Assembly: GCF_001293685.1 (NCBI RefSeq)
Contig: NZ_BCAG01000001.1
Coordinates: 62,001-126,000, forward strand
DNA length: 64,000 nt
Reading direction: 5' to 3'
From: Desulfatitalea tepidiphila
GTDB lineage: Bacteria > Desulfobacterota > Desulfobacteria > Desulfobacterales > Desulfosarcinaceae
This document shows, piece after piece, positions 2,736 to 43,177 of this stretch. The position numbers and the translations under genes are program-made. The stretch's first letter is position 1; each line of letters begins with the position of its first letter. The notes under the pieces are model-generated. The model searched no databases. It was not told the DNA's origin and saw only the letters and a list, made by a program, of their open reading frames with translations.

Positions 2736-3347
2736 TTATCGCCGGGAGTGGTCCAGTTCGGGATAGAGCACCCTGGCACACTCGGGGCAGATGCTGTGGG
2801 AAAAGTCCGCTTCCGAATGCTCATGGATATACACTTCAATGGGCTGCCACCGCCCCTCCTCGTTGCGGATTTTTTTACAGGAAGCGCAAATCGGTAACAA
2901 TCCGCTGAGCCGTTTGACTTCATTCAGCGCCTTTTCAAGGTCGGCGATCAATCGTTCGCGCTCTTTGGTGGCGCGGTATTTGATCAGTGCGATTTCGATC
3001 GTATAGCGCAGCTCGGCATTGTCGTAGGGCTTGAGTATATAGCCATAGGCATTGGCGTTGACGGCGCGTTCCAGCAAGACCTGATCGCTCAAGCAGGTGA
3101 CAAAAACGATGGGGATGTCTTTTTGATTGTGAATCAATTCAGCGGCCTCGACCCCGTTCATGTCGCCTTCCAGCAGAATGTCCATCAATATGAGGTCCGG
3201 GGATTGCTCGACAGCCATGCGAACCGCCGCTGGGCCTGTTCGTGCGATATCGCACACATGGTAGCCAAAGGAGCTCAAACGCGCTTCCAATACGGTTGCC
3301 ACATGGGTATCGTCTTCAACCACGAGAATGTTGGCCGGTAGGGTCAT
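2736..3347 (-). CDS. response regulator with receiver domain and C-terminal Cys motif
   Basis: 203 residues from the ATG at 3347, preceded by AAGGAA. The N-terminal receiver domain (about residues 6-120) has the acidic pair EDD, the phospho-acceptor Asp in LILMDILL, the Thr of VFVTC and the KPY lysine. A coiled-coil linker follows (ATKERERLIADLEKALNEV). The end carries CASCKKIRNEEG and later CPEC, a tail often found on response regulators in this phylum, possibly a zinc-binding module. There is no DNA-binding output domain, so signalling is likely by protein contact. No partner kinase is adjacent. An upstream in-frame start at 3410 exists but is less likely. Confidence 0.85.
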   Translation of the reverse strand: MTLPANILVVEDDTHVATVLEARLSSFGYHVCDIARTGPAAVRMAVEQSPDLILMDILLEGDMNGVEAAELIHNQKDIPIVFVTCLSDQVLLERAVNANAYGYILKPYDNAELRYTIEIALIKYRATKERERLIADLEKALNEVKRLSGLLPICASCKKIRNEEGRWQPIEVYIHEHSEADFSHSICPECARVLYPELDHSRR

Positions 3348-3751
3348 CGTATCATTCCTTTTACGGCGTCCATCGATCAAGGGGTGCACTTTTGATGACA
3401 CTGGATGCAAAAATTTCTCCTTCCGGGATGAATCGCCTCATTTCTTGGGACCACTTGGATCATCCGTCGTTTGTGTCAACAGCGGGGGATGAATTCAAAT
3501 ATCCTGGTGTTACAAGTTGTTGCGCATCGTTTGGCGAGCGGCGGTACAGGCGCGAAAGTGGACTCGAATATCCAGACGAGCGATCGGCACTATGGAATAT
3601 TGCAATTGGCTTGCCAGGGCATGGAGGCGTGATCACTTCCGTTCACTGAATTGGGAACGACGGCATGCAGTGACGTTATGTTTAGGAAGGAAAACCGTGG
3701 GCCAGCGGAATTGGCGGGAATTGAAGCCAGGCGCTTGCTTCGAGGATCTCG
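3348..3751. other. 404-base intergenic stretch, nothing recognised
   Basis: Between the divergently placed 5' end of the response regulator and the 3' end of the NYN gene there is no convincing open frame on either strand, no inverted repeat with a T-run, and no match to the two short repeat families found elsewhere in the window. Confidence 0.5.
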
Positions 3752-4570
3752 CTACTCGTCTTCCTGATGGAAACGTTTGATGATATACCCGCCCGACTTT
3801 TCATCGGGTTCCAGCTCCATCAAGTCCCTGGCGGCCGCCTCTTCGAGCAGGCGTTTGAACGAGCGAAAGCCATAGTAGGACTCGTTGAAACCCGGACGCC
3901 GGCGCTTGAGAGTCTGTTTCACCATGGAGCCCCAGATCTTCTCTTCCGAGCCGCGCTCCTCGGCCAGGGCCTCGAGGGTTTCCATGATCAGATCCAGCGC
4001 CTCCTGGGTACGCTCTTCGGCGTCCTTTTCGGGCACGCTGCTCTTGGTTCCCTGACGTGCCGCTTTGCGGGTCGACTTTTTGCGTGCCTTCTTTTTGCGC
4101 ACCAGGTCGTCGTAATAGATAAACTCGTCGCAGTTGGCGATCAATAGATCGGAACTGGAGTTTTTAACCCCCACACCGATGACGATCTTATTGTTTTCGC
4201 GCAGCTTGCTCACCAGCGGTGAAAAGTCGGAGTCCCCGCTGATGATGACAAAGGTATCCAGGTGGGATTTGGTGTAGCACAGGTCCAGGGCATCGACCAC
4301 CATGCGGATATCGGCCGAGTTTTTGCCCGATTGACGCACGTGGGGAATTTCGATCAGCTCGAATGCCGCCTCGTGCATGGCCGCCTTGAAGTCTTTGTAC
4401 CGTTCCCAGTCGCAGTAGGCTTTCTTGACCACGATGCTGCCCTTGAGCAGGAGACGTTCGAGCACTTTGGCGATATCGAAGGCGTCGTAGCGTGCTTCTT
4501 TGACGCCCAGGGCTACGTTTTCAAAGTCGCAAAAGACGGCGATATTTTCGGTTTCGGTGGTCTTGTCCAT
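3752..4570 (-). CDS. NYN (LabA/DUF88) domain protein with C-terminal OST-HTH/LOTUS-like region
   Basis: 272 residues. The NYN nuclease fold covers about residues 9-150, with conserved acidic residues in FCDFENV, SADIRMVVDA and ISGDSDF that form the metal site of PIN-like RNases. A Lys/Arg-rich linker (about 155-175) leads to a winged-helix-like end (about 195-265) similar to OST-HTH/LOTUS RNA-binding domains. The likely role is RNA cleavage or RNA-linked regulation in the cytoplasm, with the target unknown. A GGGAG stretch precedes the ATG. It is a stand-alone gene. Confidence 0.85.
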   Translation of the reverse strand: MDKTTETENIAVFCDFENVALGVKEARYDAFDIAKVLERLLLKGSIVVKKAYCDWERYKDFKAAMHEAAFELIEIPHVRQSGKNSADIRMVVDALDLCYTKSHLDTFVIISGDSDFSPLVSKLRENNKIVIGVGVKNSSSDLLIANCDEFIYYDDLVRKKKARKKSTRKAARQGTKSSVPEKDAEERTQEALDLIMETLEALAEERGSEEKIWGSMVKQTLKRRRPGFNESYYGFRSFKRLLEEAAARDLMELEPDEKSGGYIIKRFHQEDE

Positions 4571-32948: not shown

Positions 32949-33767
32949 TTGGCGCATATCACCTTACATGAGGGGCAGCGGATTTACTACGAGTCCATCG
33001 ACGGCGATGGAGATCTGCCCTGCCTGGTGTTCCTTCACGAAGGCCTGGGGTGCGCGGCTATGTGGAAGGATTTTCCCCGGCGGCTCTGCCGGCTCACCGG
33101 TTGTTCCGGTCTGGTCTATGACCGTCTGGGGTATGGCGGATCCTCACCAGCGGCCGCGCCGCGCACGGTTCACTACCTGCACGCCTATGCCCTGCAGGAG
33201 TTGCCTCGGGTGATTGCGGCGATCATACCGGAACGGCCTATTGTTCTGGTGGGGCATTCAGATGGGGGGACCATCGCCCTGTTGCATGGCGCCGAAAGGC
33301 CGCCGTACCTGGCCGGGATCATTACCGAGGCGGCCCATGTGTTCGTGGAATCGGTCACTCTGGACGGCATCCGGGCTGCGGTGACGGCCTTTGAAAACGG
33401 CCGGTTGGGCGGGCTGGTCAAGTACCACGGCGAAAGGAGCGAAGCGGTCTTTCGCGCCTGGAGCGACACCTGGCTCAGCGACTGGTTCGCAGACTGGAAC
33501 ATCGAATACGCCCTGCCGGCCATCGCCGTACCCCTTCTGGTAATCCAGGGGCGAGAGGATCAATACGCCACCGAACGGCAGGTGCGCACCATCGTCGCCA
33601 GGTCGGGCGGGCCGGCAACTCCGGCTTTGATCGACCACTGCGGCCACGTCCCCCACCTGGAAGAGCCGGAGGCTGTGCTTCAGTTGATGTCCGGGTTCAT
33701 CAAAGCCGCTTCAAGCCCATCGAGCACCACGCCGCCCAATCTTCGCCAGGCCGCCGGTCCCTTCTGA
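32949..33767 (+). CDS. alpha/beta hydrolase
   Basis: 272 residues starting from a TTG at 32949, with GGGGGAG about 7 bases before it. The fold is visible as LVFLHEGLGCAAMW (oxyanion region), the nucleophile elbow GHSDGG, LVIQGREDQYA with the Asp, and DHCGHVPHLEEP with the His. Enzymes of this form include esterases, C-C hydrolases and lactonases. The exact substrate is unknown. The 3' end overlaps the convergent FGase gene (33680-34393) by 88 bases. Confidence 0.83.
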   Translation: MAHITLHEGQRIYYESIDGDGDLPCLVFLHEGLGCAAMWKDFPRRLCRLTGCSGLVYDRLGYGGSSPAAAPRTVHYLHAYALQELPRVIAAIIPERPIVLVGHSDGGTIALLHGAERPPYLAGIITEAAHVFVESVTLDGIRAAVTAFENGRLGGLVKYHGERSEAVFRAWSDTWLSDWFADWNIEYALPAIAVPLLVIQGREDQYATERQVRTIVARSGGPATPALIDHCGHVPHLEEPEAVLQLMSGFIKAASSPSSTTPPNLRQAAGPF

Positions 33768-34393
33768 TAGTGATACTGGTTCAACTCCAGTTCGATGCCC
33801 ATATAGTCGCGGGTGAAAAGGGTCCGAAAATAGGTGGCCAGGCCGTCCGAGACGCCTTTATAGGGCGCGTTGCAGCGGACCGAACATTTCGGGCTGTGCG
33901 CCTGCATCTCTCTTTTCCATGTTCGACAGAAGTGTCGTTCGCCGTGTCGCGCCGGGTCGTAAAGCAGGCCCACGTCCATACTTCGGCTGCGGCCCCTTAA
34001 AACCGGCGTGAAGCTGTGAACGGCGATGTGCAGTACCGCCCGACCGTTGAGGATGGCTTCGGAGACGCTCTTTTGAATCGGGTCGCGATGGGGGGCGTAG
34101 TACTTCCTGAGAATGTTCTCTTTTTCCGTCGCCGGCAGGGACCGGGTGATGCCTGAAAAGATATTGGGATGACCGATGCTGCGGTTCAGGTCCACGAGCA
34201 GGCGTGAGCGTGTGGCGGCAAAAAGGGGCGCGTCGAACCGTTTGGCCATGCGGCGCGCCATGGCCAGGGCCCCCAAGTCGTAGCCGCTGTGGGAGTCGAG
34301 CAGGTTGCGCCGGCCTTTGAAAAGGTCGCGATACGGTGGGGGGATGACGTGGCCCCCGTGCTCGCAGGTGACGATCAGGGCTAGGGTCTTCAC
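33680..34393 (-). CDS. N-formylglutamate amidohydrolase-like protein
   Basis: 237 residues from a GTG at 34393, with AAAGGAG about 10 bases before. FGase features are IVTCEHGGHVIP, the LLVDLNRS strand, HIAVHSFTPVL and the late GIELELNQ. These zinc-dependent enzymes open an N-acyl amide of glutamate. It is the last gene of a four-gene unit, overlapping the GCS2 gene by 4 bases (GTGA). The joint arrangement suggests removal of an acyl or glutamyl group from a ligase product rather than histidine breakdown. Confidence 0.82.
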   Translation of the reverse strand: MKTLALIVTCEHGGHVIPPPYRDLFKGRRNLLDSHSGYDLGALAMARRMAKRFDAPLFAATRSRLLVDLNRSIGHPNIFSGITRSLPATEKENILRKYYAPHRDPIQKSVSEAILNGRAVLHIAVHSFTPVLRGRSRSMDVGLLYDPARHGERHFCRTWKREMQAHSPKCSVRCNAPYKGVSDGLATYFRTLFTRDYMGIELELNQYHYQKGPAAWRRLGGVVLDGLEAALMNPDIN

Positions 34394-35625
34394 AGGAACT
34401 GCTCTCCTTTGGCCAGGCAATCGCACAGGGCACCGTAGATGTCACACAGTTTTTCCCGGCTTGGACCGGCGCCTGCGGCCCTGCTGATACGCCGGGCCAG
34501 GCACCCCTTGGCTAAGATGCTTTCGAGAGCCCGGTTCAAATCCGGATCGACTGTTTGCGTCGACAGGGTCGTTTCGGCCAGGTGCTGCCAGATCTCCCTG
34601 GCCTGGACCTTTGAGGGCGGCATGCCCACGGCCTGTAAAAAGTCTTTGTCCTCGATGACGGTTTGGTCGGCTTCGCGGATGACGCGAAGGAATAGGTCGG
34701 CCAGCGGCCGGGTTGCCATCGCCTTGAGACGTTCCAGCGACACCCAACGCTCGTCGCACAGGGCCTTGAGGGCGGCCGCGATCAGGGCGGCGGCGGCCAG
34801 GTCGGCCCTCGGGCACTCCTGGATGTCGAGGACCCGGATCTCGATGGCGCCGCGGTCGAAACGGGAGATGGCGCCCCGGGAGTTGAGGAATTCATGTTGC
34901 AGGGTACCGTCGGGATCGAAGGGGGCGATATCGGCGTACATGCGCTGGAAGATCTGTCGTTCATAATCCGCCCGGGTGTAGACCGGCTCGGGCACGATGC
35001 TGCCCGCGATCGAGGGAATGCGCTCGGCGTTGTGACGGTAGACCTCCATGCGGGCGTCCATGTAACCGGTCGGGCGGCCGTCGAGGATCGGCGAGGCGGC
35101 GGTCAGGGCCGGCATGACGGGCAGCAGGAGGCGGATGGCGGCGTGCAGCCGGGCGAATTCATCGTCGCCGTGAAAGGGCAGGTTGATGTGCATGCTCTGC
35201 AGGTTGGACCAGCCGTGTCCCTTGCAGCCGAAGATGCGATCGTAGGCTTCGTAGACCGGACTGTACTCGTGGGGCCACAGCACGGTTTCGCGTTGGGGGT
35301 CCATCCAGGGATGGCAGGCCGTGGGCATGAGCCTGGCGTCCATCGGAAGCAACAGGCCATTGATCCGATCGAGATGGCGTTCGAAGGTGCGGTGCAGGCC
35401 GGCCAGGGTGGGGACCGGTCCGTTGGTCTTGAGTTCGATCACGTGCAGCACCAGTTCGTTGGACCAGGCCAGCGGCCCCAGCTCGATCTCCGAGACGATA
35501 TTCCCGGCCGCGGCCATCAAGACCCGATCGGCAACGGGCCGCACGCATAGGTCCCGGCGATCCACGATCATGTATTCGAGCTCGATGCCCATGGCGTCGA
35601 ACAGGTGCAGGGGGGTATCGTTCAT
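34390..35625 (-). CDS. GCS2-family glutamate-cysteine ligase-like carboxylate-amine ligase
   Basis: 411 residues. It has the GCS2 pattern: GIELEYMIVD at the N-terminus (metal-binding Glu), then SEIELGPLAWSNELVLHVIELKT, SMHINLP, and the terminal FDRGAIEIRVLD. Such enzymes make a gamma- or alpha-glutamyl amide with ATP (YbdK/EgtA type). It overlaps the RimK-like gene upstream by 4 bases and the FGase gene downstream by 4 bases, so the three are translated together. Confidence 0.85.
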   Translation of the reverse strand: MNDTPLHLFDAMGIELEYMIVDRRDLCVRPVADRVLMAAAGNIVSEIELGPLAWSNELVLHVIELKTNGPVPTLAGLHRTFERHLDRINGLLLPMDARLMPTACHPWMDPQRETVLWPHEYSPVYEAYDRIFGCKGHGWSNLQSMHINLPFHGDDEFARLHAAIRLLLPVMPALTAASPILDGRPTGYMDARMEVYRHNAERIPSIAGSIVPEPVYTRADYERQIFQRMYADIAPFDPDGTLQHEFLNSRGAISRFDRGAIEIRVLDIQECPRADLAAAALIAAALKALCDERWVSLERLKAMATRPLADLFLRVIREADQTVIEDKDFLQAVGMPPSKVQAREIWQHLAETTLSTQTVDPDLNRALESILAKGCLARRISRAAGAGPSREKLCDIYGALCDCLAKGEQFL

Positions 35626-37091
35626 GCGTTGCGGCTTCCCGATGTGCGCATCTCGATGCGTTTCAAAAAGACCTCCATGATGCGGGTGTAGAGCTCATCT
35701 TGGAGTACGTCGTCCTCGTAGCCCGCATCGATATTGGGGTTGTCGTTGACTTCGATGACCATGGCCGTTTTACCCACCTGTTTGAGATCCACGCCGTAGA
35801 GGCCGTCGCCGATGAGGTTGGCGGCCTTGAGAGCGGTCTTCACCACCACCGATGGGGCCTTGGCCACGGGCAGGGTCTCCACTTTGCCGTAAATTTCCCG
35901 GCCGCCCTTGTCCTTGCGTACGATCTGCCAGTGGTTGCCGGCCATGTAATATTTACAGGCGAACAGGGGCTTGCGGTCCAGGATGCCGATGCGCCAGTCG
36001 AATTGCGAGGGCAGGTAGGCCTGGGCGATGACCAGTTCCGATTTCTTGAGCAGCTGCCGGGTCTGTTCCAGCATGGCCGCCTCGTCCTCGGCGCGCACCA
36101 CCCCCTGGGAAAAGGCGCTGTCCGGCTGTTTGAGGATGCACGGGTAACTGATTTCCGGCAGGATCTGTTCGAGGTTCTTGCTGTGTACGATGTGGGTCTG
36201 GGGGGTGGGGATTTTCGAGCGCCGCAGCAGTTCGGCCAGGTACACCTTGTTCGAGCAGCGCAGGATCGATTCCGGGTCGTCGATGACCACCAGGCCTTCG
36301 GCCACGGCCTTGCGGGCCAATCGGTAGGTGTGGTGATCCACGTTGGTGGTTTCGCGAATAAAGAGGGCATCGAACTCGAAGAGCCGGTTGGAGTCCTCCT
36401 TGGTGATCAGCTCTGTGCCGATGCCTAGTTCGTCGGCGGCTTTGATGAATCGTTTGAGGGCCCGGGCATCGGACGGCGGGCGCTGCTCGGCCGGATCGTA
36501 TAAGATGGCCATGTCGTAGCGGGAGATGGAGCGCTTGGGGATATAGAGCTTCTTGCCGGCGAAATACTCCGAGGCTACCGATTCGGCAAAGGCGCGCTCT
36601 TCGACCGGGATCTCCTTGACGGTCAGCGGCGAGACGTTGGAGAGCTGCCAGTTGTTGTAGAAACCGAAGTCGGCCCTTAAAAACGGCGCCGGAAAATATT
36701 TGAAGAGCCGTGATGCGATCTGCTCGAAGCGTTTGTCCGTGCACTTGCCGAAGTAGATATTGATCGATAGCTTTTGCGGGTCTTCGGATGTGAAAATTTT
36801 TTGAAGGAGTTCGCTCTGTTCTTCGGATACCAGCCGGATGATGCCCATGGATTTGATGTCCTGGATGGTGGTGATGTTGGGTACCGGCTTGTGGTTCCGC
36901 GCCTCGGCCAGCAGGCTGACATAGTAGCCGATGCTCTGATAGCGATAGGAGCGGCAGATATTAAAGACTTTGACGCCTTTCAGGGCGGCATAGGATGAGT
37001 CGGACAGATAGGTGCGGGCGGCGACGGGTTCCACATCACTGAAATTGAGGGGGCACTCTTCCGGGTTTTCGATGACCACGAGAACGGTCAC
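35622..37091 (-). CDS. RimK-like ATP-grasp ligase
   Basis: 489 residues. A distinct N-terminal domain (about 1-270) precedes an ATP-grasp fold (about 280-470) with ISYPCILKQPDSAFSQGV (nucleotide Lys), the LPSQFDWRIGILD segment and VIEVNDNPNID (metal-binding Glu/Asn). RimK-type enzymes add an amino acid, often Glu, to a carboxylate of a peptide or protein. It is the second gene of the C39/RimK/GCS2/FGase unit, beginning 19 bases after the C39 gene. The long N-terminus is typical of the RimK-like branch found with these partners. Confidence 0.85.
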   Translation of the reverse strand: MTVLVVIENPEECPLNFSDVEPVAARTYLSDSSYAALKGVKVFNICRSYRYQSIGYYVSLLAEARNHKPVPNITTIQDIKSMGIIRLVSEEQSELLQKIFTSEDPQKLSINIYFGKCTDKRFEQIASRLFKYFPAPFLRADFGFYNNWQLSNVSPLTVKEIPVEERAFAESVASEYFAGKKLYIPKRSISRYDMAILYDPAEQRPPSDARALKRFIKAADELGIGTELITKEDSNRLFEFDALFIRETTNVDHHTYRLARKAVAEGLVVIDDPESILRCSNKVYLAELLRRSKIPTPQTHIVHSKNLEQILPEISYPCILKQPDSAFSQGVVRAEDEAAMLEQTRQLLKKSELVIAQAYLPSQFDWRIGILDRKPLFACKYYMAGNHWQIVRKDKGGREIYGKVETLPVAKAPSVVVKTALKAANLIGDGLYGVDLKQVGKTAMVIEVNDNPNIDAGYEDDVLQDELYTRIMEVFLKRIEMRTSGSRNA

Positions 37092-37110
37092 TTTGATTTC
37101 CTCCTTGGGC

Positions 37111-37824
37111 TTACCCCTTTTTGGGGGTGACGACCAGCAGATTGGCGTCGTAGGTGAGGATGCCCAACATGATGGCGCACACCAGCCGGTTCAAGCGCAC
37201 CGGGTAGATCTGGCTTTCGCTGAGGGGGTTGGGCAGCAAGGGATCGGCCACCAGGGCCGTGCGGGTGTTCATGCTGTAGCCGCACAGAACGACAAAATGG
37301 CCCGTCGGCTCCCCTTTGATATCGTCATAGACCATTTTGCGGCCCACCGCGACCTCCCGTGCCGTGCGATAAAGGTAGGTGGCAGACAGCCCGGTCAATA
37401 TCGGTACGCCTCGCTTGAGAAGGCCGCGGATGAGGCTGGCGGTCATGTCCTCGAAGCGGATGGTTCCGCCCATGCGCAGAAAATCGAGGTAGGCTTTACT
37501 GGCCGACCTGATTTTGGGATGGACTTTGGTGCGCATCTGGCGTTGGAGCCGTTCGCCCATCTCCCTGGGACTCATTTTGAACCAGGTGGGATCGAACACC
37601 TCCAGGTTGTAGGTGTAGAGCTTGGCCCGGTACCCGCGCTGCAGGGCGTGGCAACCCATGAGCACGGCCAGGGTACCGCCGCCTTTGAGCTGCTTGACTT
37701 CGCGGATCACCTGCTTGAGCGGGATGTCGTCTTCATAGTAGTTGTAGACGGCCTGGAGGCAGGTGGGACCGCAGGTGGTGTCGTCGGGTTGAGCCAAAAT
37801 TTCAAATTGCAGCTGGGTGTCCAT
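37111..37824 (-). CDS. C39-like papain-fold cysteine peptidase (cytoplasmic)
   Basis: 237 residues. It has the papain-like triad pattern of family C39: DDTTCGPTCLQAVYNYY with Cys near 18, GHFVVLCGY with His, and VADPLLP with Asp. It lacks signal peptide and membrane segments, unlike C39 domains of bacteriocin exporters, so it should act in the cytoplasm. As first gene of the four-gene ligase unit it may trim or cyclise a peptide that the RimK-like and GCS2 ligases extend. Substrate unknown. Its upstream region carries the B5 repeat. Confidence 0.78.
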   Translation of the reverse strand: MDTQLQFEILAQPDDTTCGPTCLQAVYNYYEDDIPLKQVIREVKQLKGGGTLAVLMGCHALQRGYRAKLYTYNLEVFDPTWFKMSPREMGERLQRQMRTKVHPKIRSASKAYLDFLRMGGTIRFEDMTASLIRGLLKRGVPILTGLSATYLYRTAREVAVGRKMVYDDIKGEPTGHFVVLCGYSMNTRTALVADPLLPNPLSESQIYPVRLNRLVCAIMLGILTYDANLLVVTPKKG

Positions 37825-37950: not shown

Positions 37951-38108
37951 GGGATTCTAACTGAGCGCGATGTATTTAACCCGGCGTGTGTGGGACAGGT
38001 GGCCAGGGCCACCCACGCCTGCCATCTCCGTTGTCATGCGATTTTTTTATCAATAAACTTTTGGGAAGTGCGCCCTTCAGTGGGAATCACATTCAGTTGG
38101 AATTGTTT
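37951..38108 (+). repeat. Family B MITE-like element, internally deleted copy (B5) in the metW 3' end
   Basis: About 158 bases, lacking the middle of the full copies. The ends are TTCTAACTGAGCG at 37955 and CATTCAGTTGGAA to 38102. The flanking 11-mers TCGAGTGATCA (37940-37950) and TCGGGTGATGA (38109-38119) match at 9 of 11 positions. It forms the last 75 bases of metW including the stop. A palindromic core (GGTGGCCAGGGCCACC) is inside. Confidence 0.85.
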
Positions 38109-38723
38109 TCGGGTGATGACAAACATCCCCACATGGGCCATCAGGTTGGTCACCGTGATGGGCAGCCGGTGCATCCATTTGCCGGCGATGAGGTAGCGCT
38201 CCTGCACGATCCGGATGTTCTGGGCGTGACAGTAGTCGAAAAAGTCGCGGATGGAGAGCACGCGGATGTTGGGGGTGTCGTACCATTCGAAAGGCAGGGC
38301 CGGCGATTTGGGAGCCCGCCCGCCGAAAAACAGCCCGCGCCGCAGCTGCCACTGGGCGAAATTGGGAAAGCCCACGACGCCATAGCGGCCGATGCGCAGC
38401 ATTTCGTTGAAGACCAGCAGGGGATTCTTGACCACCTGCAGGGTCTGGTTCAGGATCACGTAGTCGTAGGCATTGTCGGGAAAGTCGGCCAACCCCTCGT
38501 CCAGGTCGCCCTGGTAGACGTTGAGGCCGAAGGCGAGGCCTTCGATCAGTTGGTCGCCGCTGATGTCCACGCCTGTTCCGCGGATGCGGCGCTTGGCGAC
38601 CAACTCGTTGAGCAGGCTGCAATCGCCGCATCCCAGGTCCAGCACAGAGACACCCTCGGGCACCAGGGTAAGAATCACATCCCGGTCGGTGCGGCTGAGG
38701 CGGTCTACGTATTGGGCGTTCAT
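38034..38723 (-). CDS. metW: methionine biosynthesis protein MetW, with MITE-encoded C-terminal tail
   Basis: 229 residues of a SAM-dependent methyltransferase fold, with VLDLGCGDCSLL as motif I and the YDYVILNQTLQVV segment typical of MetW, which works with MetX in homoserine acylation. The start overlaps metX by 4 bases. The family usually ends near AVFxLxR; here FVITR is followed by 24 extra residues that lie wholly within the B5 repeat. Joining the two target-site copies restores Leu-Phe-Asp-stop after FVITR, so the insertion extended the protein. The enzyme core is intact. Confidence 0.88.
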   Translation of the reverse strand: MNAQYVDRLSRTDRDVILTLVPEGVSVLDLGCGDCSLLNELVAKRRIRGTGVDISGDQLIEGLAFGLNVYQGDLDEGLADFPDNAYDYVILNQTLQVVKNPLLVFNEMLRIGRYGVVGFPNFAQWQLRRGLFFGGRAPKSPALPFEWYDTPNIRVLSIRDFFDYCHAQNIRIVQERYLIAGKWMHRLPITVTNLMAHVGMFVITRKQFQLNVIPTEGRTSQKFIDKKIA

Positions 38724-39871
38724 GCGGTTATCTCCTTATCTACGGTCTTCTCCACGCCGGTGAGGAACCCGGAGACGATACGGGTCAACTTCTCCTCCTC
38801 CACCAGAAAGGCGTCGTGGCCGTAGGGCGAATCTATATCGATGAAGGACACCGGTTTGCCGCAGGAAAGCATGGCGCGGACCATCTCCTTGGTCTGACTG
38901 GTGGGAAAGAGCCAGTCGGTGCTGTAGGAGACGAACAGGCAGCGCGCCTGAACCCGCGCGAAGGCTTCTTTCAGCGGGCCGTAGGATCGTTCGATATCGA
39001 AGTAGTCCATGGCCTTGGTGATATAAAGATAGCTGTTGGCGTCGAACCGCTCGGTAAAGGCGCTGCCCTTGTGGTTGAGGTAGCTTTCGATGGCGAATTC
39101 ACTGGAGAAGTTGTAGCTCAGCCGGTTGGCCGACTGGAGCCGGCGGCCGAACTTGGCGTCCAGCAGCATTTCCGACAGGTAGGTGATGTGGCCGATCATG
39201 CGGGCCGTGGCCAGTCCCTGCTCCGGCCCCCTGCCGGTGTAGTGCCCCTCTCTCCATTCCGGATCGCGGGTGATGGCGCTTCGACCGATGCTGTTGAAGG
39301 CGATGGCCTGGGCCGAAAGGCGCGGGGCCGATGCGATGCAGATGGCCGAACGCACCATTTCCGGATAACGCAGACTCCATTCCAGCACCTGAAACCCGCC
39401 CATTGAGCCGCCGGCCATACTGTAGAGACGTTGGATACCCAAGTGGTCCAGGAGGCGCTTCTGAGCCGCGACCATGTCGCCGATGGTCACCACCGGAAAG
39501 GTGAGGCCGTAAGGATCGCCGGTGCGCGCATCGATGCTGGTCGGACCGGTCGATCCCTTGCAGCCGCCGATGATATTGGAGCAGATGACCCAGTAGCGGC
39601 GGGTGTCGAACGCCTTGCCCGGGCCGATCATGTTGTCCCACCAGCCGGTGCGGCGATCGTGGGGGTCGTGATATCCGGCCACGTGGTGGTCCCCGGAAAG
39701 GGCGTGGCAGATCAAAATGGCATTGGAGTGATCCGCGTTGGGTTCGCCATAGCTCTCGTAGACAATGTCCACCGGACCCAGCGTATAACCGGATTCGAGG
39801 ACCAGCGGATCATCCTTGCCGCCGAAGGTGAATGTCTGGGGGGTTACCCGTCCAACCGACTTGCGATCCAT
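38720..39871 (-). CDS. metX: homoserine O-acetyltransferase MetX
   Basis: 383 residues of the alpha/beta-hydrolase acyltransferase family. The nucleophile lies in AGGSMGGFQ, with NSNAILICHALSG-type N-terminal blocks, DWLFPT and PYGHDAFLVE (catalytic Asp/His). It acylates homoserine with acetyl-CoA in the cytoplasm. The start MDRKSVGRV at 39871 is preferred to 39916, which overlaps metY. It is the second gene of metY-metX-metW and is followed by metW with a 4-base overlap. Confidence 0.92.
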   Translation of the reverse strand: MDRKSVGRVTPQTFTFGGKDDPLVLESGYTLGPVDIVYESYGEPNADHSNAILICHALSGDHHVAGYHDPHDRRTGWWDNMIGPGKAFDTRRYWVICSNIIGGCKGSTGPTSIDARTGDPYGLTFPVVTIGDMVAAQKRLLDHLGIQRLYSMAGGSMGGFQVLEWSLRYPEMVRSAICIASAPRLSAQAIAFNSIGRSAITRDPEWREGHYTGRGPEQGLATARMIGHITYLSEMLLDAKFGRRLQSANRLSYNFSSEFAIESYLNHKGSAFTERFDANSYLYITKAMDYFDIERSYGPLKEAFARVQARCLFVSYSTDWLFPTSQTKEMVRAMLSCGKPVSFIDIDSPYGHDAFLVEEEKLTRIVSGFLTGVEKTVDKEITA

Positions 39872-39884
39872 ATGAATAATACCT

Positions 39885-41192
39885 TTAATCTCCCTGCAGG
39901 GTACAGCTGACGCCATGTTTCAGGGCCTGATCCAGATCTGCGATGATGTCGTCGATATCCTCGATGCCCACGCTGAGGCGGATAAAGTCGGGCGTGACGC
40001 CGGCGGCCTGCTGTTCCGCCGGGCTCAGTTGTTCATGGGTGGTGGAGGCAGGGTGGATGACCAGGCTCTTGGCATCGCCGATATTGGCCAGGTGGCTGAA
40101 GAGGTTGCAGCTTTCGATGAATTTCACGGCCGCCTGACGTCCGCCCCGGATGCCGAAGCCGACCAGCGCTCCCTGCCCCTTGGGAAGATATTTCCCTTTC
40201 AGGTCATAGGTGGGAGACGAAGGCAATCCGGGATAACGCACCCAGGCCACGCAGGGGTGCTTTTCCAGCCATTGGGCCACGGCCATCCCGTTTTCGCTGT
40301 GCCGCTGCATGCGCAGGGCCAGGGTTTCCAGTCCCTGCAGGAAAAGCCAGGCATTGAAGGGGCTGATGGCGGCGCCCATGTCGCGCAGCCCCAGCACCCG
40401 GGCACGCAGGATGAAGGTCAGGTTGCCGAAGGCATCGTGGAACTTGAGACCGTGGTAGGCCGGCTCGGGTTCCAGGAAAGCGGCGAAGCGGCCCGAAGCG
40501 GCCCAATCGAACCGGCCCGAGTCGACGATGATTCCACCGATGGAGGTGCCGTGACCACCGATGAATTTGGTGGCCGAATGGACCACAATGGCGGCACCAT
40601 ACGCGATGGGGCGGAGCAGGTAGGGTGTGGTGACCGTGTTGTCCACGACCAGCGGAATGCCGTGGGTTTGCCCGATTCTGGAGATCTTTTCGATGTCGAT
40701 GATGTCGAGCTTGGGATTGCCGATGCTCTCCACGAAAAAGGCCTTGGTGCGATCGTTGACCGCCTGCTCCCAGCCGTTCAGATCGCCCGGTGTGACATAG
40801 CGAACCCGGATGCCGAGTTTGGGCAGGGTGTGGGTGAAGAGGCTGACCGTACCCCCGTACAGATCGGTGGAGGCCACGATTTCATCACCGGCTTGAGCCA
40901 AAGTGAGAATGGTCAGGGTCGCGGCGGCCTGGCCCGAGGCCACGGCCAGGGCGCCCACACCGCCCTCCAGGGCCGCCATGCGCTGTTCGAGCACGTCGGT
41001 TGTCGGGTTCATGATGCGTGTGTAGATATTGCCGAATTTTCGCAGACCGAACAGGTCGGCCGCGTGGGTGGTGTCGTCGAACGTGTAGGAGGTGGTCTGG
41101 TAGAGCGGCACAGCGCGCGAATGGGTCTCGCTGTCCGGCGTGTGGCCGCCATGGATGGCCTGAGTGGAAAATCCCTTGTATGTCTTGGTCAT
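39885..41192 (-). CDS. metY: O-acetylhomoserine sulfhydrylase MetY
   Basis: 435 residues of the Cys/Met-metabolism PLP family. Signature segments are the start TYKGFSTQAIHGG, the PLP-binding Lys in VHSATKFIGGHG, and the SVGIEDIDDIIADLDQAL tail. It makes homocysteine from O-acetylhomoserine and sulfide, which fits a sulfide-producing organism. The ATG at 41192 has GAGGAGG 7 bases before it. A SAM-I riboswitch and terminator precede it on the same strand. Confidence 0.93.
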   Translation of the reverse strand: MTKTYKGFSTQAIHGGHTPDSETHSRAVPLYQTTSYTFDDTTHAADLFGLRKFGNIYTRIMNPTTDVLEQRMAALEGGVGALAVASGQAAATLTILTLAQAGDEIVASTDLYGGTVSLFTHTLPKLGIRVRYVTPGDLNGWEQAVNDRTKAFFVESIGNPKLDIIDIEKISRIGQTHGIPLVVDNTVTTPYLLRPIAYGAAIVVHSATKFIGGHGTSIGGIIVDSGRFDWAASGRFAAFLEPEPAYHGLKFHDAFGNLTFILRARVLGLRDMGAAISPFNAWLFLQGLETLALRMQRHSENGMAVAQWLEKHPCVAWVRYPGLPSSPTYDLKGKYLPKGQGALVGFGIRGGRQAAVKFIESCNLFSHLANIGDAKSLVIHPASTTHEQLSPAEQQAAGVTPDFIRLSVGIEDIDDIIADLDQALKHGVSCTLQGD

Positions 41193-41225
41193 GGCAATCC
41201 TCCTCGGATCGTCTGTCGGTATTAA

Positions 41226-41254
41226 AATAAAAAAACCTCTCGCGCCGGAGAGGT
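41226..41254 (-). terminator. intrinsic terminator of the SAM riboswitch leader
   Basis: On the minus strand ACCTCTCCGGCGCGAGAGGT (41254-41235) forms a hairpin followed by a run of seven T, then ATTTT. It lies between the riboswitch and metY, as expected for SAM-triggered early termination. The stem sequence GAGAGG repeats that of the riboswitch 5' side, so alternative pairing with the aptamer is possible. Confidence 0.85.
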
Positions 41255-41283
41255 CTAACATATCCCATGTTGTCTCGCCGACC

Positions 41284-41373
41284 TCATGTTTCCCTTTACG
41301 GGCTGGATTTGGCACCTTTATGGACAGGTTGCCGGGCGGTCGTCAGGCCAGTTCCCTCGCGCCTCTCAACATG
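41284..41373 (-). ncRNA. SAM-I (S-box) riboswitch upstream of metYXW
   Basis: The minus strand has P1 halves CATGTT (41373-41368) and AACATG (41289-41284). Between them are the S-box hallmarks GAGGGAACTGGCC, CCCGGCAACC and GGTGCCAAATCC. The order and spacing match the SAM-I consensus. It should stop transcription of metY-metX-metW when S-adenosylmethionine is plentiful. Confidence 0.9.
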
Positions 41374-41393
41374 ATTATGTATGTGACCGGAAT

Positions 41394-41421
41394 ATTTAAG
41401 GCATCAACTTCGAATTGTCAA
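41394..41421 (-). promoter_or_regulatory. sigma-70-type promoter for the met leader
   Basis: Minus strand TTGACA (41421-41416), 16-base spacer, TTAAAT (41399-41394), about 20 bases upstream of the riboswitch P1. The -35 is a full match and the -10 matches 4 of 6. Confidence 0.6.
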
Positions 41422-41455
41422 GCCGGGGATCAGGGCAACGAACGCGTTGTAAGGA

Positions 41456-42913
41456 TCAGCGGCCCGATTTGGCCTGGAGGAATTCCCGCGCTCTGTCCAC
41501 GAGGGCGGGTGCCCATTGGGGGGTGCCCAGCGCGTGGATGTGGGTATAGGTGGCCAATACGCGATTGTGGCACAAGCCGTCCAGGCCGTTTTTGAGCCCC
41601 TTTCCGCGCTCCATTTCGAAAGCCATGGATTCTGGGGGGCTTTCCAGAAGCTGCACCGTGGAGTAATGGAATTCGTGTCCTTTGATGGTCTGGCCGGTTT
41701 CAAAGTAAGGATTTGGGCGGGCCACCCGGGCGATGGTGTAACCGTGCCCCTGGGGCCGCTTGGAAAACCCGAAAGAGACGGGCAGCACGCCGGTCATGGG
41801 AAAGGTCCCGTCGTCGAGGACGAGTTCCCGGCCCATGTACATCAACCCGCCGCACTCGGCATAAATAGGCAGGCCTTGCTCGGCCTGGCTTTTGATCTGG
41901 TCACGGTAAGTCACATTGCGGGCCAGGCGCTGGGCGTGGGTTTCTGGAAATCCGCCGCCGATATAAAGGGCGTCTACGTCGGGCAGGTTGTCTTCGAACA
42001 GCGGGCTCGTGACCACCAGGTCCGCGCCCGCCTGAACCAGGGCATCGAGGTTTTCCGGGTAGTAGAACTGGAAGGCCGAGTCCCGGATGATGCCGATCCG
42101 CGGCCGCGGCAGGGCCGGCTCCGCATAAGTTGTTTTGGGTGTCATTGTTCTTGCGGAGCGGGTCCCTGTGCCCATGGAATCGAAGCGGCCGTGTAAGGGT
42201 ACCCCGGCGATGTCGGACAGCCGGGCCAGGTCGATATATTGTTCCGCCAGTTCGGCGATGGTGGCCACGGCGTCCTGGGCCCACTGGTGCTCGTAGGTGG
42301 GCACCAGCCCCATGTGGCGTTCGGGAAAGCTCTGTTTGCGAAGCTTGGGAACCGCTCCCACCACAGGAATGCCGCAGTGCTCCTCGATACTGGTGCGCAG
42401 GATGTTTTCATGTCTTGCGCCGGCGACGTGGTTCAGGACGACGCCCTTGATCTGCACCGCCGGGTCGAATTGGATGCAACCGGCCACCACGGCGGCCATG
42501 GTGCGAGTGGTTTTTGTAGCATCGATGCAGAGGATGACCGGCAGGCCGAGCAGTTTGGCCAGTTCGGCGGTGGAGGTCAGGCCGTCGGTGCTGATGCAGT
42601 CGTAGAGGCCGCGATTGCCCTCGATCACTGCGGCGCCGGTGCTTTGCGTGTGTCTTTGAAAAGAGTCGACAATGGTGGGGGAATCGATAAGGAAGGTGTC
42701 CAGGTTATAGCAAGGCCGGCCGGCGGCCAGAGCCAGCCAGCCGGCATCGATATAATCGGGACCCTTTTTAAAGGGTGCAACCAATACACCCCGGTTCCTG
42801 AGCGCCGCAATGATGCCGACCGAGAAAATCGTTTTTCCCGAACCGCCGCGCAAGGCAGCGACGACAAAGCCGGGGCAGCCGGCCTGGGGCCTTTGTGATG
42901 GAACCGGTATCAA
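41456..42913 (-). CDS. dsrN: cobyrinate a,c-diamide synthase-like amidase DsrN (sirohaem amidation)
   Basis: 485 residues. An N-terminal dethiobiotin-synthetase-like P-loop domain (ALRGGSGKT near residue 20) is followed by a C-terminal glutamine amidotransferase domain with the YAECGGLMYM nucleophile Cys and a KGHEFHYS His segment. In Desulfobacterota this CbiA/CobB-type gene follows dsrABD and is proposed to amidate sirohaem of DsrAB, as DsrN does in sulfur oxidisers. A role in cobalamin synthesis is an alternative. The start is a TTG at 42913, chosen by lack of a better site. Confidence 0.82.
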   Translation of the reverse strand: MIPVPSQRPQAGCPGFVVAALRGGSGKTIFSVGIIAALRNRGVLVAPFKKGPDYIDAGWLALAAGRPCYNLDTFLIDSPTIVDSFQRHTQSTGAAVIEGNRGLYDCISTDGLTSTAELAKLLGLPVILCIDATKTTRTMAAVVAGCIQFDPAVQIKGVVLNHVAGARHENILRTSIEEHCGIPVVGAVPKLRKQSFPERHMGLVPTYEHQWAQDAVATIAELAEQYIDLARLSDIAGVPLHGRFDSMGTGTRSARTMTPKTTYAEPALPRPRIGIIRDSAFQFYYPENLDALVQAGADLVVTSPLFEDNLPDVDALYIGGGFPETHAQRLARNVTYRDQIKSQAEQGLPIYAECGGLMYMGRELVLDDGTFPMTGVLPVSFGFSKRPQGHGYTIARVARPNPYFETGQTIKGHEFHYSTVQLLESPPESMAFEMERGKGLKNGLDGLCHNRVLATYTHIHALGTPQWAPALVDRAREFLQAKSGR

Positions 42914-42931
42914 TGTTGGAGTGCCGAAGGT

Positions 42932-43177
42932 CTAATCTTCGCCTTCGCTGTGGGCTTGCTTGCCAGTTCCATGCAGACCGTACATGGAGGTGCTGCCGCT
43001 GGACCAATACTCCAGAACGCCGTCCTCGACCAACTTGTTGACGATCTTCTTCGCATCCCGGGGTTTCATGTCGAGAATCTTGGAAAGATCGTTGAAGTAA
43101 AACTTCGATTTGGTCTTCAGCTTCTTGGTCAGTTGGTCAACGATTAACTGTTTCGCCTCTTCATATTCCATTGCCAT
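42932..43177 (-). CDS. dsrD: dissimilatory sulfite reductase D (DsrD)
   Basis: 81 residues of a winged-helix protein: KSKFYFNDLSKIL, PRDAKKIVNKLVEDGVLEYWSSG and the end SMYGLHG are characteristic of DsrD. The family stimulates DsrAB activity, although it was first thought to bind DNA. The next residue options are MAMEYEE or MEYEE; AAAGGGG is before the first. It lies 91 bases after dsrB, behind a strong palindrome. Confidence 0.93.
   Translation of the reverse strand: MAMEYEEAKQLIVDQLTKKLKTKSKFYFNDLSKILDMKPRDAKKIVNKLVEDGVLEYWSSGSTSMYGLHGTGKQAHSEGED

Follow-up and report, generated by a model that had tools for sequence, protein, structure and literature searches.

Here we examine a cluster of four closely packed genes in the bacterium Desulfatitalea tepidiphila, found in a stretch of 64,000 nucleotides (contig NZ_BCAG01000001.1, positions 62,001 to 126,000 of the forward strand) that we call the window. 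The list of open reading frames and a reading of the sequence confirmed the cluster at 37824..33680 on the minus strand. In the order of transcription, it encodes a stand-alone C39-like papain-fold enzyme of 237 amino acids (37824..37111), a ligase of 489 amino acids that joins an RLAN domain to a RimK/LysX-type ATP-grasp domain (37091..35622), a GCS2-type carboxylate-amine ligase of 411 amino acids (35625..34390), and an enzyme of about 237 amino acids that resembles N-formylglutamate amidohydrolase (FGase-like; 34393..33680). The four genes are one functional unit, beyond what chance would bring together, as seen in their conservation across genomes and in fused reading frames, both described below. 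All four families had been named at 33680-37824 in a preliminary description of this DNA, and all four proteins exceed the Pfam gathering scores; the assignment of the first two draws in addition on conserved residues, with an AlphaFold model for the one and a fold match for the other, and that of the third on a signature motif. None of the four reaches an NCBIfam equivalog or family cut-off.

The genes are as tightly spaced as that description had stated, overlapping by 4 bases or lying less than 20 bases apart. A 19-base junction with an AAGGAGG ribosome-binding-like motif (37092..37110) separates the C39-like gene from the RLAN ligase gene, whose stop shares an ATGA overlap with the start of the GCS2 gene (35622..35625), and a GTGA overlap (34390..34393) joins the GCS2 stop to the FGase-like start. 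This last overlap assumes the GTG at 34393, which was chosen by judgement, the longest open reading frame starting at 34426; residues of the FGase-like protein are numbered from that GTG.

Throughout, the catalytic roles of residues in the four families are family knowledge, and their conservation was counted over the families that we collected. The C39-like protein matches Peptidase_C39_2 with 39.8 bits against a gathering score of 24, and among the members of its family PF13529 is matched by 45 of 45 and PF03412 by 43 of 45. Its N-terminus, MDTQLQFEILAQPDDTTCG, has no hydrophobic export signal to the eye, in line with the earlier account of a papain-type peptidase that lacks such a signal. 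The presumed triad Cys18-His176-Asp194, accompanied by Gln12, is conserved in 82-83 of 83 rows, with one gap, and the alignment and the model (mean predicted local distance difference test score, pLDDT, 91.2) together show the Cys-His-Asp triad in a papain-like fold that is expected of a C39 peptidase. The model lies equally close to a GG-leader peptidase (6mpz; Z 17.8, root-mean-square deviation (rmsd) 2.0 over 136 residues) and to the phytochelatin synthase Alr0975 (2bu3; Z 17.7, rmsd 2.5, 162 residues), and papain folds generally reach a Z of about 13. The bacteriocin-type C39 peptidase goes with an ABC transporter and a GG-leader substrate; here the protein stands alone, with no widely kept transporter or small reading frame nearby. 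As a separate observation, in one locus of Paraliomyxa (L208, 6245-8434) the C39 domain occupies residues 499-727 of a frame of 729 amino acids, a possible fusion to a further N-terminal part.

The RLAN ligase scores 154 bits against RLAN (PF14401; gathering score 25) and 38.2 against RimK (PF08443; 21), and its residues K282, K321, D435, E447 and N449 are conserved in 144-145 of 145 aligned rows, so that the RLAN domain and an ATP-grasp domain with the ATP and Mg residues expected of the family are both in place. Its model has a mean pLDDT of 90.7 and a predicted template modelling score of 0.62. For the ATP-grasp half, the best fold matches are ArgX/LysX/RimK structures (Z 26.4-27.8 over 262-272 residues), with Z 27.8 and rmsd 2.4 over 267 residues for ArgX/LysX 3vpb and Z 27.2 and rmsd 2.8 over 272 residues for RimK 7qyr; D-Ala ligases come next at Z 24. 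The matches listed in the fold search with the whole model are ATP-grasp chains, and the RLAN part is thus uncovered. Among the named equivalogs, the cut-offs of the RimK S6-glutamate ligase (20 bits against 331), LysX (57.6 against 275.6) and the glutathione synthetase GshB (22.1 against 272) are not reached.

The third protein matches GCS2 (PF04107) with 102 bits against a gathering score of 21. The G-h-E-x-E motif, named as the Mg/ATP signature of GCS2 ligases (PMC2588565, as far as its available passages go), appears as GIELE at residues 13-17; G13, E15 and E17 are invariant in 11 rows, E15 and E17 stand in 91 of 92 rows with one gap, and E15, E17, E64 and R264 are conserved in 91-92 of the 92. 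None of the NCBIfam cut-offs for glutamate-cysteine ligases (EgtA, cyanobacterial GshA, YbdK) is reached, the best score being 61.6 bits against 176.4, and the protein belongs to a subfamily of its own, outside every named equivalog that it matches. The FGase-like protein scores 78.3 bits against PF05013 (gathering score 28.9), has 2odf (Atu2144) as its best solved relative (E 1.4e-34), and finds no NCBIfam match at E 0.001. Its presumed active-site residues are kept in 59-61 of 61 rows, with E11, H12, H126, E201 and E203 in all 61. The preliminary view of one peptidase and one amide hydrolase is thus supported as two enzymes of hydrolase fold.

Conservation of the cluster

A search of a species-genome collection with a profile of the GCS2 subfamily found at least 567 stretches with a relative (E up to 1e-3), and the best 80 of these matches, over which the following counts were made, span 13 named phyla. 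Planctomycetota (28), Bacteroidota (15), Thermodesulfobacteriota (12) and Pseudomonadota (8) lead, two loci are unplaced, and some entries labelled 'Deltaproteobacteria' are placed in Myxococcota in this tally. The preliminary description had called for a survey of gene neighbourhoods and named a lack of conservation as the result that would speak against a pathway; what we found is that the genes are kept together, all four in 50 of the 80 loci (11 named phyla) and both ligases in 75 (13 named phyla). Of the other loci, 19 lack only the FGase-like gene, five hold GCS2 and RLAN, one holds GCS2, RLAN and FGase, two hold GCS2 and FGase, and three hold GCS2 alone. In a wider set of 90 loci, made of the 80 and ten more that in part duplicate them, the order C39-RLAN-GCS2-FGase is held wherever it can be read, except in L105. 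By profile matches, junctions of 60 bases or fewer join C39 to RLAN in 75 of 80 cases, RLAN to GCS2 in 78 of 84, and GCS2 to FGase in 54 of 58. The GCS2 gene lies apart from RLAN in four loci (L039, L085, L098, L110); an RLAN ligase is encoded elsewhere in all four of these genomes, adjoining C39 in two of them (L210, L211), and all 13 genomes that were checked for an RLAN ligase, these four included, have one.

The same pattern is seen when whole genomes are counted. Across 297 genomes of the window's phylum, RLAN is found in 14, this GCS2 in 11, all of them among the RLAN genomes, and this C39 in 11, of which ten are among the 14. A sample of 169 Planctomycetota genomes has RLAN in 42, GCS2 in 32 and both in 31, each pair lying close together on one contig, and RLAN occurs in none of 14 well-known control genomes. 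Pairwise distances between the proteins of the four families are correlated (Spearman 0.34-0.57, against a maximum of 0.18 in 300 permutations) over 75 loci, 54 of them with FGase, after L018, L019, L059, L087 and L208 had been dropped by hand, a correlation to which the descent of the species adds. Closer to the window, RLAN is present in 9 of 11 genomes of its genus, its own genome counted, and in 1 of 29 other near relatives, so the module is gained or lost at about the level of the genus.

In three of the 169 Planctomycetota genomes, RLAN, ATP-grasp and GCS2 are read as a single open reading frame of 974 (L229), 988 (L228) or 1001 (L227) amino acids, confirmed by Pfam. C39 lies directly upstream of the fusion in L228 and L229 and FGase downstream in L229; at the L227 locus, no match to C39 or FGase was seen. 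Because RLAN-ATP-grasp-GCS2 share one reading frame, there is good evidence from sequence that the two ligases, recognised earlier as ATP-using enzymes of different folds, act in succession.

No fifth gene was found to travel with the cluster. The neighbours in the 90 loci fall into 113 groups, none of them in more than 8 loci; with the exception of one row (L095), the groups of that size consist of Bacteroidota, and the group with the broadest spread reaches 4 phyla in 4 loci. Pfam matches for 20 selected neighbours are to mixed families, with aldehyde dehydrogenase twice and no recurring metal or redox family, and the neighbour grouping holds no widely recurring transporter family. The conserved small substrate peptide that the preliminary description had hoped to find nearby did not appear: within 2 kb of the cluster, open reading frames of 22-110 amino acids from 86 loci form 106 groups, none of which is a kept precursor or small carrier, the largest (8 loci) being entirely Bacteroidota and the widest of the 18 groups that reach at least two phyla covering 3 loci. 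None of the four proteins matches a PADLOC model of anti-phage defence.

Around the cluster in the window itself, a convergent alpha/beta-hydrolase gene (32949-33767, plus strand) overlaps the FGase-like gene tail to tail by 88 bases (33680-33767), and upstream, at 38034-43177 on the minus strand, lie metW, metX, a gene of the Cys/Met-metabolism pyridoxal phosphate (PLP) family, a CobB/CobQ-like gene and dsrD, which points to a sulfite-reducing metabolism. A link of the cluster to sulfur was considered and is not supported: the metY-metX-metW neighbours are common only to the near-identical locus L031, and are within reach in none of ten other loci (L032-L038, L025, L026, L224), three of which (L033, L035, L036) span no more than 5-8 kb. 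Among all the loci collected, a metY-like (Cys/Met-metabolism PLP) gene is found, beyond the window, in L031, L077 (5 kb from the cluster) and L225 only; in L225 it adjoins the lone C39-like gene (3167-3901) of genome G135. Promoter-like sites number 2 (shuffle mean 1.3), both on the other strand, and terminator-like sites 3 (shuffle mean 4.6).

A sister system with a GNAT acetyltransferase

Beyond anything in the preliminary description, the RLAN ligase has a second kind of partner. In the three genomes of the window's phylum that have RLAN without GCS2, a GNAT acetyltransferase adjoins the ligase (L027, L028) or is fused to it (L029), and these three seeded a GNAT profile. The phylum of a Gammaproteobacteria metagenome-assembled genome (G299) has RLAN in 62 of 349 genomes, with 65 matches, of which 52 were examined (51 loci and G299 itself) and the other 13 are outside the counts; GNAT stands beside RLAN in 50 of the 51 loci, L167 has neither partner, and the locus of G299 (L097) belongs to the GCS2 type. 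When nine regions from other searches are added, GNAT is present in 52 of 60 regions, and in 36 of these 52 the same frame encodes GNAT and a papain-fold DUF3335 domain, a fusion that Pfam confirms in seven GNAT-frame proteins. The 11 Planctomycetota genomes with RLAN and without GCS2 show GNAT in ten and neither partner in one (L236), and in five of the ten (L237-L241) the RLAN and ATP-grasp parts are separate neighbouring frames (Pfam on L239). GNAT is fused to the ligase in L029, L213, L233 and L234.

The two systems are related through both of their shared members. The sister RLAN ligases are 36-48% identical to that of the window, and hhalign aligns the window's C39 with DUF3335 (probability 97.4, E 1.2e-11), Cys, His and Asp included; DUF3335 is matched directly in Pfam by 3 of 45 C39-like members, and its profile is found in none of the 90 GCS2-type loci. 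On a tree of 141 RLAN ligases (84 GCS2-type, 52 GNAT-type, 3 with neither and 2 with C39 only), the label GCS2 or GNAT changes once; GCS2 against all other rows requires 5 changes, GNAT against the rest 2, and the four groups 6, on a tree made by FastTree only in which L213, L204 and L224 are flagged as long branches. No locus examined has both partners: the 90 GCS2-type loci contain four weak GNAT matches (25-35 bits), one of them directly upstream of C39 in L109, against scores of 58-120 for the partners in GNAT-type loci, and the 52 GNAT-type loci contain no FGase-like match. In Desulfosediminicola and Desulforhopalus the two systems are found side by side in one genome, each at a locus of its own, and therefore the GNAT and GCS2 forms are not simple substitutes for one another.

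Because the exchanged partners, an acetyltransferase and a glutamyl ligase, both N-acylate, the exchange suggests that one step of the pathway may cap an amine. It is possible, and we propose it tentatively, that such exchangeable N-cap chemistry is widespread, a core of RLAN ligase and papain-fold enzyme being combined with an acetyltransferase or a glutamyl ligase to give two related classes of molecule, either capped peptides or protein termini that bear a cap; if so, the GNAT and GCS2 forms would make analogous products that differ in their cap.

Proposed function and rival explanations

The reading that we favour, at about even chances, is that the module is a self-contained cytoplasmic make-and-trim pathway for a small N-capped, probably gamma-glutamyl, oligopeptide. 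RimK-type ligases attach amino acids to a carboxylate. Enzymes of the GCS2 fold form a bond between an amine and a carboxylate, which is usually the gamma-carboxylate of glutamate (PMC2588565). Under the pathway proposed, the GCS2-type ligase would activate a carboxylate, most likely the gamma-carboxylate of a glutamate to be expected from family membership, and join it to an amino acid or other amine to form an N-glutamyl cap, and the RLAN/RimK-type ligase would extend the carboxylate end by another amino acid. The C39-like enzyme might then cleave the product, or transfer an acyl or peptidyl group of it by way of a cysteine thioester, in the manner of phytochelatin synthase, while the FGase-like metallohydrolase, where present, would split the acyl-amino-acid amide for recycling; in the sister system, GNAT in the place of GCS2 would give an acetyl-capped analogue. 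What we infer is the order of reactions, the use of glutamate, and that the product is a small molecule and the target not a protein. A small cytoplasmic product is favoured because the search turned up no transporter, precursor, carrier or fifth gene that is kept near the cluster and because the module is patchily present, and its coming and going at the level of the genus suits an accessory metabolite. If this is right, the natural two-ligase fusions, given ATP and amino acids, would yield the core product in one tube.

Several observations weigh against it. We infer both substrate and product; the GCS2 protein falls below every named equivalog cut-off, so that a glutamate substrate is family knowledge, and the role of the C39-like enzyme may be either hydrolysis or transfer. 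In 27 of the 80 loci no FGase-like gene adjoins the others, some of these absences being contig ends, and so this gene looks accessory; of the complete make-and-trim pathway first proposed, the unit stands and the completeness varies. RLAN ligases with no GNAT, GCS2 or C39 beside them (L167, L207, L236) have no known split or second cluster to explain them, one genome (G135) has the C39-like gene with no RLAN or GCS2 match, and another (G698) has GCS2 and FGase with RLAN not found. In G228 (L030/L226), where C39 was not found, the gene of the RLAN ligase is broken and that of the FGase-like enzyme short, which may be either decay or an error of assembly. Finally, the solved structures nearest to the ATP-grasp half are ligases of the LysW and S6 C-termini (by family knowledge of their roles), which favours a protein target, and a SET-domain gene, identified by Pfam, comes next in line after the RLAN-GNAT pair of Desulfosediminicola and Desulforhopalus (L205 3821-4414, L206 7495-8094), which hints at protein modification.

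It is this likeness to LysX and RimK, with the SET-domain neighbours, that keeps protein modification alive, as a rival that we consider somewhat unlikely. In such a tagging system, the RLAN ligase would attach amino acids to a cytoplasmic protein, either at its C-terminus or on a side chain, GCS2 or GNAT would modify an amine of the target or tag, and the C39 and FGase-like enzymes would remove the tag. ArgX/LysX and RimK work at the C-terminus of a protein, LysW or the ribosomal S6, and the one sister GNAT that was scanned is RimI-like, with 80.3 bits against a cut-off of 86.4 that it does not reach. However, neither a target nor a small tag protein was found to be kept nearby, among the neighbours of the 90 loci or the small frames within 2 kb; the patchy presence of RLAN (14 of 297, 62 of 349 and 42 of 169 genomes) would require the modification to be dispensable, and the fusion of the two ligases is at least equally well accounted for by two steps in a row on a small substrate.

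A glutathione-like thiol or metal-binding peptide, which would be a special case of the small capped oligopeptide, is improbable. GCS2 would make gamma-Glu-Cys or an analogue, the ATP-grasp ligase would add a third residue, and C39 would act like phytochelatin synthase. The chemistry of the GCS2 family, a two-ligase fusion that recalls the bifunctional glutathione synthetase, and the tie between Alr0975 and the GG peptidases as closest structures (Z 17.7 and 17.8) all speak for it, as may the Cys/Met-metabolism PLP gene near the cluster in the window, L031 and L077 and by the lone C39 in L225, a placement that may be chance. Yet the ligases stay far from the cut-off for glutathione synthase (22.1 bits against 272) and reach none for glutamate-cysteine ligase, the PLP gene recurs in no further locus, no metal or redox family recurs among the 20 annotated neighbours, and the structural tie has to be read against the Z of about 13 that papain folds reach in general.

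Very improbable is a graspetide-like ribosomal peptide, cross-linked by the ATP-grasp enzyme and freed of its leader by C39: both kinds of enzyme are found in such pathways, according to passages of PMC8939145, but no small frame is widely kept within 2 kb over 86 loci and no transporter family widely recurs. That four unrelated housekeeping genes became neighbours by chance has virtually no probability left, for although each family has members with other roles, and the flanking metYXW genes are themselves an example of chance neighbours, this is refuted by an order kept over 13 named phyla, near-complete co-occurrence and the fusions. Borne out, the small capped oligopeptide would represent a new class of peptide metabolite in bacteria, and the strongest rival a protein modification that is likewise new.

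Comparison with known systems

Iyer et al. 2009 reportedly proposed the general idea of ATP-grasp and GS-fold ligases beside peptidases, and may list this neighbourhood or foresee parts of it. Among titles, the beginnings of abstracts and passages of open-access full texts, no account of this gene set or its function was recognised, and nothing on the GNAT-GCS2 exchange was found in the open-access literature searched.

The glutathione enzymes GshA and GshB and the fused GshF resemble the cluster in pairing a GS-fold with an ATP-grasp ligase, sometimes in one protein, and the order of the GshF fusion is the reverse of RLAN-ATP-grasp-GCS2. In contrast, the ligases of the cluster lie outside the named equivalogs and are joined by papain-fold and FGase-like enzymes. 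LysX and ArgX, which work with LysW, come nearest to the ATP-grasp half among solved structures (Z 27-28), whereas no small carrier gene was found kept within 2 kb of the cluster. Phytochelatin synthase and the C39 GG-leader peptidases share the papain-like fold and the Cys-His-Asp arrangement with the C39-like protein, which differs in standing outside an ABC transporter, in having no leader peptide that we could find and in forming its own subfamily. The RimK/RimB and RloABC systems of Pseudomonas likewise pair a RimK-type ligase with a peptidase, but their peptidases are retropepsin-like, and the available passages of that article mention neither GCS2 nor an RLAN domain (PMC12239564). The synthesis of the osmolyte NAGGN, by a GNAT/ATP-grasp synthetase together with an amidotransferase, serves only as an analogy.

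Also close is the two-gene system of an RLAN ligase with GNAT-DUF3335, which has the same ligase family and a related papain-fold enzyme and differs in its N-acyl enzyme, a GNAT acetyltransferase where the cluster has GCS2, and in the FGase-like enzyme, with no match in the 52 loci. The GNAT-DUF3335 fusion is itself already in print (a passage of PMC10318531, citing Iyer et al. 2009). Operons of the amidoligase-peptidase kind have reportedly been proposed before, in 2009; new here are the spread of the four genes together, the fusion of the two ligases and the exchange of GNAT for GCS2 in a single step.

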